64,000 bases of DNA from Pyruvatibacter mobilis (GTDB lineage Bacteria > Pseudomonadota > Alphaproteobacteria > CGMCC-115125): NCBI RefSeq assembly GCF_012848855.1, contig NZ_CP051630.1:2831501-2895500 (forward strand), written 5' to 3'. The notes under the pieces were generated by a model. The model searched no databases. It saw nothing but the letters and a program-made list of their open reading frames with translations, and was not told the origin of the DNA. A program made the position numbers and the translations under genes. How positions within the stretch are numbered: the first letter of the stretch is position 1; the number at the start of each line of letters is the position of its first letter. Of the stretch, positions 4,130 to 39,375 are shown in pieces.

Positions 4130-4852
4130 TCAGGCGGCGCGGATGAATTCGAGATAGCAGGGGGTGCGGCCTTCGCGGATGGCCTTGGCCTCGTAGCGGG
4201 TGCCGGGCCAGTCCTGCGGCGCGGTTTCCCACTCGGCCTTGCTGTTGGCCGTCCACAGAAAATGACCATCCCGGCGGGTTTCGGCCAGGGTCCAGCGGAT
4301 GTAGTCGGGGATGTCGCTGGCGACTTCCAAGATGCCGCCGGGGCGGATGACGCGGGCCAGGGAGGCCAGTGTGTCCGGGCCGATGAAGCGGCGCTTGTTG
4401 TGGCGCGCCTTAGGCCAGGGATCGGGGTAGAGCACATAGGCCCGGTCGAGGCTGGCGTCGGTAAGGCTGTCGAGCACATCGCGGGCGTCGCCGTGATGGA
4501 CGCGGATATTCGGCAGGTCTTCCTCGTCGATGGCGGCGAGGACCTTGGCCACCCCGTTCATGAAGGGTTCGCAGCCGATGAAGCCTGTGCGGGGATTGGC
4601 GCGGGCGCGCGCGACAAGATGCTCGCCGCCGCCGAAACCGACCTCGAGATGGATCGCCTCCAGCCCAGGAAATACCGTGTGCGGATCAATTGCCGGGTCA
4701 GACGCACTGGTGCGCAGGGGGAATGCCACCTGCGGCAGCAAGGTCTCGAACAGCTGCTGCTGGCGCCGGGACAGGGCCTTGCCCTTGGCCCGGCCATAAA
4801 TGAGGGGCCGCCGTTCAAACGGCTGCCCCTCACGTTTGGTCTTGTCGGTCAT
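4130..4852 (-). CDS. trmB: tRNA (guanine-N7-)-methyltransferase TrmB
   Basis: TrmB makes m7G46 in the variable loop of tRNAs using S-adenosylmethionine. The 240-residue protein has a Rossmann SAM site (HLEVGFGGGEHLVARA, about 68-83), the acidic IGCEPFMNGV motif after strand 2, VLYPDPWPKARHNKRRF (the family signature), and a C-terminal TRYEAKA segment. It lies 20 bases after metK, which makes its cofactor; this pairing is conserved in the group. Confidence 0.96.
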   Translation of the reverse strand: MTDKTKREGQPFERRPLIYGRAKGKALSRRQQQLFETLLPQVAFPLRTSASDPAIDPHTVFPGLEAIHLEVGFGGGEHLVARARANPRTGFIGCEPFMNGVAKVLAAIDEEDLPNIRVHHGDARDVLDSLTDASLDRAYVLYPDPWPKARHNKRRFIGPDTLASLARVIRPGGILEVASDIPDYIRWTLAETRRDGHFLWTANSKAEWETAPQDWPGTRYEAKAIREGRTPCYLEFIRAA

Positions 4853-36584: not shown

Positions 36585-38120
36585 TCAGGCTGCCGCGTGG
36601 GCGGTGGCCGGGGCGCGGCGGAAGCTCAGGGCTTCTGCAAGGTGGGCGCGGGTGACGCGGTCACTGGCCTCGAGATCGGCGATGGTGCGGGCGACGCGCA
36701 GGACGCGGACAAAACCGCGGGCCGACAGGCGCAGGCGCTCGGCGGCCTGATCCATCAGGTCGTGGCCTTCAGTGTCGAGCTGCACCACCTGGTCGAGAAG
36801 CTGGCCGTCCGCTTCGGCATTGGTGCGGGGCAGAGTGCTGCCGTCGGCGAGGGATGTGTAGCGCGCTTCCTGACGGGTACGGGCGGCGGCGACGCGGGCG
36901 GCGATGGCGGCAGACGGCTCACCGGGCACCCCGTGACGCAGATCAGCGGCGGAGACCGGGGGGACGTCGAGCTGGATGTCGATGCGGTCCATCAGCGGGC
37001 CGGAGACGCGGGTCTGATAATCCTGAGCGCAGCGGGGCAGGCGGCCGCAGGCCAGGCCGGGCTCGGTGGCATAGCCGCAGCGGCACGGATTCATTGCAGC
37101 GACAAGCTGGACGCGGGCCGGGTAGCTGACATGGTGGTTGGCGCGGGCGATCACCGCCTGGCCGGTCTCAAGCGGCTGACGCAGGGCATCAAGCACGGGG
37201 CGCGCGAACTCAGGCAGTTCATCGAGAAACAACACACCGTTGTGGGCCAGGGAGATCTCGCCGGGTTTGGCCTTGATGCCGCCGCCGACCAGGGCTGCCA
37301 TGGAGGCCGAATGATGCGGCGCGCGGAACGGCCGGGCAGGGCTCAGGGCACCGCCTTCCAGCGTGCCGGCGATGGACGCAACCATGGCGACATCCAGCAT
37401 TTCGCGGGTCGACATGGGCGGCAGAATGCCCGGCAACCTGCTTGCCAACATGGATTTGCCTGCCCCCGGCGGGCCGACAAAGAGGAGGTTGTGGCCGCCG
37501 GCGGCAGCGATCTCCAGCGCCCGCTTGGCGGTTTCCTGGCCCTTGATGTCGGCCATATCGGGGATGGTGCCGCCCGCTGCGCGGGGGGCCGGGCGCGGGG
37601 CCGGCAGGGTCTGGGTGCCCTTGACGTGGTTCACCACCTCAAGGAGCGAGCGGGCGGCGATGATCTGCATCTCCCCCGCCCAGGCGGCCTCGGGCCCGCA
37701 GGCTTCGGGGCAGATGAGCCCGCGATCTGCGCCATTGGCGGCGATGGCTGCGGGCAGGGTGCCGGTGACCGGGGCGATCGAGCCATCAAGACCCAGTTCG
37801 CCCAATACACAGAAACCGTCCATCGCATCCTGGGGCAGAACGCCCAGGGCGGTCATCAGGGCCAGGGCGATGGGAAGATCGTAATGGCTGCCTTCCTTGG
37901 GCAGGTCGGCGGGGGCGAGATTGACGGTGATGCGCTTGGGCGGCAGGGCGAGACCGATGGCAGTCAGCGCGGACCGGACGCGTTCGCGGCTTTCAGCAAC
38001 TGCCTTGTCACCCAGGCCGACGACGGCAAAAGCCGGAACGCCAGGGGAAAGCTGGACCTGCACGCTGACATCGCGTGCCTCGACACCTTCGAACGCAACC
38101 GTGTTGACGCGTGCAACCAT
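36585..38120 (-). CDS. comM: ComM/YifB-family Mg-chelatase-like AAA+ ATPase
   Basis: This 511-residue protein has an N-terminal Lon-like fold (about 1-170), a Walker A LLFVGPPGAGKSMLASRLPG (about 215-225), a Walker B/NGVLFLDELPEF, and a C-terminal Mg_chelatase_C segment beginning CRCGYATEPGLACG with a cysteine cluster and GPLMDRIDIQLDVPPV. ComM is a hexameric helicase that moves DNA branches during natural transformation. I chose ATG 38120, the family start. A LexA-type site lies 206 bases upstream. Confidence 0.95.
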   Translation of the reverse strand: MVARVNTVAFEGVEARDVSVQVQLSPGVPAFAVVGLGDKAVAESRERVRSALTAIGLALPPKRITVNLAPADLPKEGSHYDLPIALALMTALGVLPQDAMDGFCVLGELGLDGSIAPVTGTLPAAIAANGADRGLICPEACGPEAAWAGEMQIIAARSLLEVVNHVKGTQTLPAPRPAPRAAGGTIPDMADIKGQETAKRALEIAAAGGHNLLFVGPPGAGKSMLASRLPGILPPMSTREMLDVAMVASIAGTLEGGALSPARPFRAPHHSASMAALVGGGIKAKPGEISLAHNGVLFLDELPEFARPVLDALRQPLETGQAVIARANHHVSYPARVQLVAAMNPCRCGYATEPGLACGRLPRCAQDYQTRVSGPLMDRIDIQLDVPPVSAADLRHGVPGEPSAAIAARVAAARTRQEARYTSLADGSTLPRTNAEADGQLLDQVVQLDTEGHDLMDQAAERLRLSARGFVRVLRVARTIADLEASDRVTRAHLAEALSFRRAPATAHAAA

Positions 38121-38430
38121 GCCCACCCCCATCACGCCGGACCATCCGGACTTGCGCCGAATGGCCGATTATCAGTTGACGGAAAGTCTGCGGGTGCTCG
38201 AAACGCAAATTGCCGGGCGACGCACAGGCTTCAGCTTTGGCCTACAAATGTTCCGCCCGCTTGCGTCAAATTGACAACTGAGCACAATTATCCCCAATCC
38301 GCCTTAACACTTGAGACCATAGCAAGAACATTAAATGAACGCACGTTCTTTTTCTGGGGACAGGTGAACTATCACTCACCAGGGCCGGAGAGTGCCAGAC
38401 CGGCGGGCAGGCGCTGTTGCCCCGAGCGGG
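38121..38430. other. Gene-free region between gshB and comM
   Basis: These 310 bases are between the gshB stop and the comM start. Apart from the LexA-type site there are only short unconvincing frames, for instance a 37-codon frame on the plus strand at 38161-38274 with no good ribosome site. The region is richer in A+T between about 38255 and 38345, as expected for a promoter. Confidence 0.6.
38326..38348 (-). promoter_or_regulatory. Compound LexA (SOS) operator upstream of comM
   Basis: GAAC (38326-38329), seven bases, GAAC (38337-38340), four bases, GTTC (38345-38348). On the minus strand this is GTTC-N7-GTTC, the alphaproteobacterial LexA box. The second GAAC also forms GAAC-N4-GTTC with the last GTTC, the Gram-positive type LexA box. 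comM is the only gene placed to be controlled, 206 bases downstream. Confidence 0.8.
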
Positions 38431-39375
38431 TCAGGACGCGCGCTTGGCTTCGATCACATCCCAGATCATGGCGGCGATATTGGTGCCGTCGAACCGCTCG
38501 ATCTCCCGCAGGCCGGTCGGCGAGGTGACGTTGATTTCGGTGAGGTAGTCGCCGATGACGTCGATGCCGACGAAGATGAGGCCGCGCTTTTTAAGTTCCG
38601 GGCCGATGATGGCGCAGATTTCGCGCTCCCGGTCTGTCAACCGGGTTGCTTCCGGGCGGCCACCCACATGCATGTTGGAGCGGCTTTCGCCCTCGGCCGG
38701 GACGCGGTTGATGGCTCCGGCGATCTCGCCGTCGACCAGGATGATGCGCTTGTCGCCGGCGCGGACGTCCGGGAGATAGGCCTGGGCGATCAGCGGCTCG
38801 CGGTACATCTGGGTGAACATCTCGAGCAGGGATGCGAGGTTTTCGTCATCCGGGCGGACGCGGAAGACGCCGGCGCCGCCATTGCCGTAAAGCGGCTTGA
38901 GGATGATGTCCTTGTGCTCGGCGCGGAAGGCGCGGATGTCCTGCTCGCTGGAGGAGATCAGCGTCGGCGGCATGACGCCGTCGAACTCGGTGACGAACAG
39001 CTTTTCAGGCGCGTTGCGCACATGGGACGGATCATTGACCACCAGGGTGTGGGGGTGGATGTGATCGAGGATGTGGGTGGCGGTGATGTAGCTCATGTCG
39101 AAGGGCGGATCCTGGCGCATCAGCACCACGTCCACGTCACGCAGGTTTGTGACAACCTCGTTGCCTTCAGTGAAATGATCGCCCTCCGCGTCGCGCACCT
39201 CAAGGCTGCGGGTGCGGGCCAGCACCTCGCCATTGCTGAGGGAAAGGTCGCGCGGCAGGTAGTAGCAGAGCGCATGGCCGCGGGCCTGTGCTTCAAGTGC
39301 CAGGCGGAAGGTGGAATCGCCCTTGATGTCGATGGCCGCGACCGGGTCCATCTGGATTGCAATCTTGAGCGCCAT
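38431..39375 (-). CDS. gshB: Glutathione synthetase GshB
   Basis: This 314-residue ATP-grasp enzyme joins gamma-glutamylcysteine and glycine. The N-terminal domain begins [21 protein letters not shown]. The ATP-grasp part has [36 protein letters not shown] and the terminal [23 protein letters not shown]. Length is standard. It stands in the conserved rsmI-yraN-gshB order, with dolP and a SirB1 protein placed between. Confidence 0.97.

Follow-up and report, generated by a model that had tools for sequence, protein, structure and literature searches.

The window (the whole stretch of DNA that was analysed, 64,000 nucleotides in length) corresponds to G000:C1:2831501-2895500 of a complete 3.33-Mb genome (G000), which its class relatives and its boxes place in the alphaproteobacteria. 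The gene comM and its upstream neighbour gshB both lie on the minus strand, and the start codon of comM was set by alignment with relatives. The features of the locus are given below.

38431 to 39375, minus strand: gshB, glutathione synthase, the upstream neighbour (NF003573, 461 bits against a cut-off of 272)
38239 to 38349, minus strand: conserved non-coding block with no indels in four genomes (73 of 111 columns invariant)
38337 to 38348, minus strand: palindrome GAACGTGCGTTC, with the third half-site GAAC at 38345-38348, invariant in four of four genus members
38326 to 38340, minus strand: predicted LexA direct-repeat box GTTCATTTAATGTTC (read towards comM), from its sequence and its conservation before comM
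38316 to 38324, minus strand: possible extended -10 element TGCTATGGT, inferred from TG-N-TA-Y-GGT common to four genomes
38287 to 38299, minus strand: invariant GATTGGGGATAAT, which contains TGGGGATAA (alignment of four genomes)
38265 to 38278, minus strand: conserved palindrome GTTGTCAA-N-TTGAC, present once per genome, here, in four of four genus members
38240 to 38253, minus strand: conserved GAACATTTG-Y-AGGC (alignment of four genomes)
36585 to 38120, minus strand: comM, a YifB/ComM family Mg-chelatase-like AAA ATPase, the presumed target (TIGR00368, 524 bits against a cut-off of 362.4)

The window sequence reads GAACATTAAATGAACGCACGTTC at 38326-38348, exactly as the sequence-only reading had stated. 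On the plus strand it comprises GAAC-N7-GAAC at 38326-38340 and GAAC-N4-GTTC at 38337-38348, with the middle half-site common to both. Read on the minus strand towards comM, from 38348 to 38326, the order is GAAC-GTGC-GTTC-ATTTAAT-GTTC, so that the first pair of half-sites is inverted with a 4-base gap and the second pair is direct with a 7-base gap. The site lies 206-228 bp before the comM start codon, with the direct repeat at -220 to -206. Since gshB precedes comM and is read in the same direction, comM is the gene most naturally taken as the target. The exact fit of GAAC-N7-GAAC to the alphaproteobacterial SOS box was confirmed at 38326-38340. The Gram-positive LexA box that had been proposed for the other pair is matched in its core but not in its outer bases. 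A table in PMC9578287 gives both LexA box types, the Gram-positive one as CGAAC-N4-GTTCG; the direct-repeat box is also given in passages of PMC8565304 and PMC12700426. The GAAC-N4-GTTC core at 38337-38348 and its spacing of 4 are like those of the Gram-positive LexA (DinR) box of B. subtilis and S. aureus. However, the outer C...G is absent here, the plus-strand flanks being T and T, and the flanks in the relatives, read towards comM, are A before and C after. The palindrome also differs from the DinR box in abutting a direct repeat in this genus, and the one LexA detected in this genome is, to judge by its box, of the alphaproteobacterial kind.

Counts of the motifs in the window showed that each box is at the chance level when taken alone. 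GAAC-N7-GAAC has two matches against 1.24 expected (at least two in 38 of 100 shuffles), and GAAC-N4-GTTC has one against 0.69 expected (at least one in 46 of 100 shuffles). The only other GAAC-N7-GAAC of the window, GAACCCTTCATGAAC (4556-4570, minus strand), has a letter-for-letter second copy at G000:C1:3299417-3299431 within an open reading frame (L106) and is thus probably no operator. Genome-wide, the direct repeat has 66 matches compared with 48 for the reversed control, indicating that most exact direct repeats in the genome occur by chance. The three-half-site pattern, a 23-mer, occurs once in the 3.33-Mb genome and its reversed control does not occur, with ~0.4 occurrences per genome expected by arithmetic at equal base composition. 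With counts at the chance level, the observation is weak without comparison; the above-chance status of the site comes from its conservation before comM in four of four genus members.

Comparisons of the comM upstream regions showed that all four genus members examined carry the three half-sites ahead of comM; in the three other than G000, the direct repeat begins at -154 or -151 and ends at -140 or -137. GTTC-N7-GTTC, oriented as here, was found upstream of comM in 45 of 80 named alphaproteobacterial loci against 0.45 expected, these 80 being the best of at least 583 confirmed matches and rich in Bradyrhizobium. The comparison covered up to 400 bp before comM, some loci having little upstream DNA; within these limits 35 of the 80 have no exact same-orientation repeat, and three of the 80 have the repeat only in the opposite orientation. 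In a wider class sample (30 comM loci minus L025, L027, L029 and L030, in which the gene start is missing), the exact repeat precedes comM in only one of 22 loci outside the genus. The comM box is thus common but not universal, 35 named loci and 21 of the 22 class relatives being without one. The consensus of the 45 boxes is GTTC-YYNWAWT-GTTC-TTG; the window site, GTTC-ATTTAAT-GTTC-TTG, agrees with it at every base except the first of the spacer, and its AAT-GTTC-TTG flank is the flank in many of the 45. However, all 45 start between -106 and -55, whereas the box of this genome lies farther from the start, at -220, and is accompanied by an inverted half-site four bases upstream.

A single lexA was found in the genome, above the family cut-off, with the LexA DNA-binding domain PF01726 and the S24 domain PF00717, and the direct repeat GAACCAAACTAGAAC lies upstream of lexA itself. 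Fifteen of the 66 genome repeats, picked by spacer composition, were fetched, and seven of the 15 adjoin lexA or other repair genes, several genes being cut at the end of the stretch so that their scores are partial. Besides lexA and ssb, the neighbours comprise two radical SAM genes (a DNA-repair one, TIGR03916, and one of the PA0069 type), a ligase-associated helicase/exonuclease pair, the start of a PolIII alpha gene, and an imuA-like gene that scores 48.9 bits against a family cut-off of 150. One of the remaining fetched repeats adjoins gafY and seven lie by no evident SOS gene. Upstream of recA (L202, L201, L203), a far direct repeat is conserved in G000, G001 and G003; nearer the gene, GAACAAAMTGTGTACATTAACC is conserved in the same three genomes, its second half-site being GTAC, not GAAC.

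On this evidence, GTTC-N7-GTTC is very probably a real alphaproteobacterial LexA box, with the same half-sites, spacing and target gene as the comM box of Caulobacter. A LexA box before comM is not new, as SOS regulation of comM is already in print: passages of PMC3323433 report comM, tag and dnaE as SOS-regulated in Caulobacter crescentus, and passages of PMC6473078 place ComM among the core regulon members, citing Erill 2004. The latter source also describes site predictions for Dinoroseobacter shibae, in which the com genes have CtrA sites while dprA and recA have the LexA sites, and the CtrA sites at com genes were counted against LexA control of comM. We favour control of comM by LexA in response to DNA damage, with a probability of roughly 0.8. 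LexA would sit on GTTC-N7-GTTC, just upstream of or over the comM promoter, and block transcription. DNA damage would lead to RecA-triggered self-cleavage of LexA, its release from the DNA and production of ComM, a branch-migration helicase. Of the DNA-damage control that the sequence-only reading had claimed for comM, the LexA box is supported by its sequence, its conservation at comM and the company of repair genes, and we infer the steps of binding, repression and induction at comM from the known family; the conservation of the box was observed directly.

The third half-site shows a different distribution from the direct repeat. Comparison of the site in relatives, which had been proposed as a check, found the direct repeat both in the genus (4/4) and in the 45 named loci, whereas the third half-site at spacing 4 is present in all four genus members and in none of the 45 named comM boxes outside the genus. 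The 13 bases AGAACGTGCGTTC are invariant in all four genus genomes and lie within the indel-free 111-bp block. Across these genomes, four of the seven spacer positions in the direct repeat vary, while the inner GTGC of the palindrome, which is symmetric at 10 of 12 bases, is invariant. Thirteen consecutive invariant columns give a p of ~1e-11 to 4e-10 per start point (flanking rates, columns taken as independent), which overstates the case because G001 and G003 are almost identical in the block: with 3/111 differences between them, the four genomes amount to about three lineages. Judged from the alignments, the third half-site is genus-specific but under constraint, and its invariance in four genomes suggests that some protein may read it.

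The conservation extends past these 13 bases into the following 98, which align without gaps and contain more invariant stretches. The block is invariant in 73 of its 111 columns, compared with 13 of 69 in the adjoining upstream DNA and 6 of 42 in that downstream. The leader blocks GATTGGGGATAAT, GTTGTCAANTTGAC and GAACATTTGYAGGC lie between the LexA box and comM (38239-38320) in four genus members, and TGGGGATAA, within the first of them, is one that we take to be DnaA-box-like. GTTGTCAANTTGAC was rejected as the mark of a regulon, with one place per genome, at comM. A search with three short motifs in at most 400 bp before comM of the 80 named loci gave a single isolated GTCAANTTGAC (L141). 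A structured RNA leader was rejected after an Rfam search (E up to 1) without a match and fold z-scores of -1.36 and -1.45, as was a small open reading frame, the block having no codon periodicity and no frame open in all four genomes. Scans for a terminator and a sigma-70 consensus found none; they teach little, as the shuffles expect only 0.4 and 0.1, respectively.

Searches beyond the genus showed that the compound arrangement is not a general one. GAAC at spacing 4 is present in none of the 15 other fetched repeats of this genome. Across 385 genomes, the genus included, the three-half-site pattern has 64 places against ~81 for the reversed control (hand count). Beside SOS-type boxes with A/T-rich spacers in the 385 genomes, spacing 4 has seven matches outside the genus, the ten other spacings having 9.2 on average: spacings 0 to 3 have 2, 1, 7 and 11 matches, and spacings 5 to 10 have 12, 7, 11, 15, 12 and 14. 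Leaving out the low spacings 0 and 1 (2 and 1), the mean of the remaining eight is about 11. A compound operator recurring across the class was thus rejected, with neither an excess over the reversed control nor a peak at spacing 4. As a general idea, the earlier proposal that two LexA modes are joined here is not supported, in view of this lack of class-wide enrichment, the 45 comM boxes and the missing outer C...G; nothing shows that the site joins two kinds of LexA recognition.

Individual spacing-4 cases outside the genus do occur at SOS-type promoters. According to tblastn, these are comM in G378, the imuA-like gene in G323, G380 and weakly G336, a PA0069-type radical SAM gene in G170 and lexA in G128; by eye, radA in G073 and mraZ in G032 and G162 were added. 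The RadA and ImuB references for the tblastn gene calls were taken from the loci themselves. Fourteen of the 64 places were fetched, mainly for A/T-rich spacers, as were 18 of 106 places from a free-spacing search, and the gene lists of both sets are therefore non-random; four of the 14 lie by no evident SOS gene (L115, L117, L119, L120). Other spacings are also found at SOS-type promoters, including spacing 5 at comM of G301, from the genus of G378. In G162 and G032 (L109, L110; one family), two direct repeats each, one of them with a spacing-4 third half-site, lie upstream of mraZ- and rsmH-like genes of the division/cell-wall cluster (assigned by eye), which suggests LexA control of this cluster.

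Given LexA control of comM, the leading guess for the third half-site, held tentatively, is that LexA reads it (GAAC-GTGC before the repeat) as an extension of the operator and a second, overlapping place. The fuller form of this guess, in which one LexA binds in mutually exclusive inverted (4) and direct (7) registers with the central half-site common to both, is quite unlikely. It is somewhat unlikely that the palindrome GAACGTGCGTTC belongs instead to a different regulator, for example a RogA-type XRE/S24 repressor or an activator, with two proteins competing for the middle half-site; such a regulator would displace the operator extension and leave LexA control of comM intact. The invariance of GTGC beside a LexA spacer that varies at 4/7 positions is what a palindrome recognised as a whole would show, the palindrome is followed by further conserved stretches other than direct repeats, and this genome has an XRE-type HTH gene, RogA-like by eye, divergent to gafY. 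However, GAACGNNCGTTC occurs once in this genome, leaving no wider regulon at that stringency; the counts are one in G000, one in G001, two in G003 and four in G002, and a palindrome regulon of another factor found no support. The RogA operator of the Caulobacter gafYZ promoter, which passages of PMC9632790 locate where a LexA-like repressor binds, is also an inverted repeat with a four-base spacer, but it reads GGAA-N4-TTCC, unlike this site: neither GGAA nor TTCC is present at 38337-38348, where the half-sites form GAAC-N4-GTTC.

A rather doubtful alternative, which competes only with the operator-extension step, is that nothing reads the third half-site as such and that it lies by accident in promoter DNA whose conservation serves RNA polymerase contacts or a leader function. 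The conservation of the whole 111-bp block would fit such an accident, as would the lack of a preference for spacing 4 beside SOS-type boxes (7 vs. a mean of 9.2) and the recA promoter, where the three-half-site arrangement is present in G001 and absent in G003 and G000. On the other hand, no -35-like hexamer was seen by eye on the third half-site, and the half-site is perfect, within a 10/12 symmetric palindrome invariant in four genomes. That the whole site is chance and LexA inactive here agrees with the chance-level counts of each motif in the window and of the repeat genome-wide (66 vs. 48 reversed) but is highly improbable given that the box is conserved before comM within the genus as well as in 45/80 named loci and that SOS control of comM is in print.

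The genome also contains a gafY-gafZ-like pair (DnaA-type HTH and DUF6456), activators of gene transfer agents, and a TIM-domain gene (PF13547, 504 bits) of the kind that is characteristic of such agents. Upstream of gafY-gafZ, at G000:C1:1967709-1969000 (L099, L223, L235), is the LexA-type repeat GTTCGTATTATGTTC, which starts 40 bp before the common gafY start (22 bp before the longer predicted start in G000); GGGGATAAT, noted among the comM leader blocks, is also found directly before gafY in G000. GTTCGTATTATGTTC is present in three of three genus gafYZ loci (G000, G001, G003), the fourth genome falling outside the completeness filter. Among the best 30 gafZ places compared, 27 of them outside the genus, two of the 27 (G323, G057) have a comparable repeat within ~60 bp of a gene taken by eye to be gafY. 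The XRE-type HTH gene divergent to gafY is located at L223 2165-2770, and a similar one in G323 at L226 65-661; with this arrangement, repressor and target may share a promoter region. A direct SOS switch for gene transfer agents through the gafYZ box is possible from these sequences. Passages of PMC6363796 describe LexA acting on the gene transfer agent of Rhodobacter capsulatus through cckA, and in Dinoroseobacter a LexA site is predicted at the gene-transfer-agent cluster (passages of PMC6473078). Among the titles and passages on gafY, gafZ or gafA with LexA or SOS, no report of LexA at gafYZ was found.

The site before comM extends a known pattern: many alphaproteobacteria have a DNA-damage box at comM, the product of which assists recombination of imported DNA. 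The alphaproteobacterial box is said, after Mazon and colleagues (2004), to be derived from the Gram-positive one. If LexA reads the third half-site, one short natural DNA would allow a single repressor to be tested in inverted and direct registers, which bears on the origin of the direct-repeat mode. A two-register operator, if real, could give tighter or graded repression and would form a living link between the Gram-positive and the alphaproteobacterial mode of LexA recognition. Together, the comM and gafYZ boxes suggest that the genus may link DNA damage to the production of gene transfer agents and to the recombination of the DNA they deliver.
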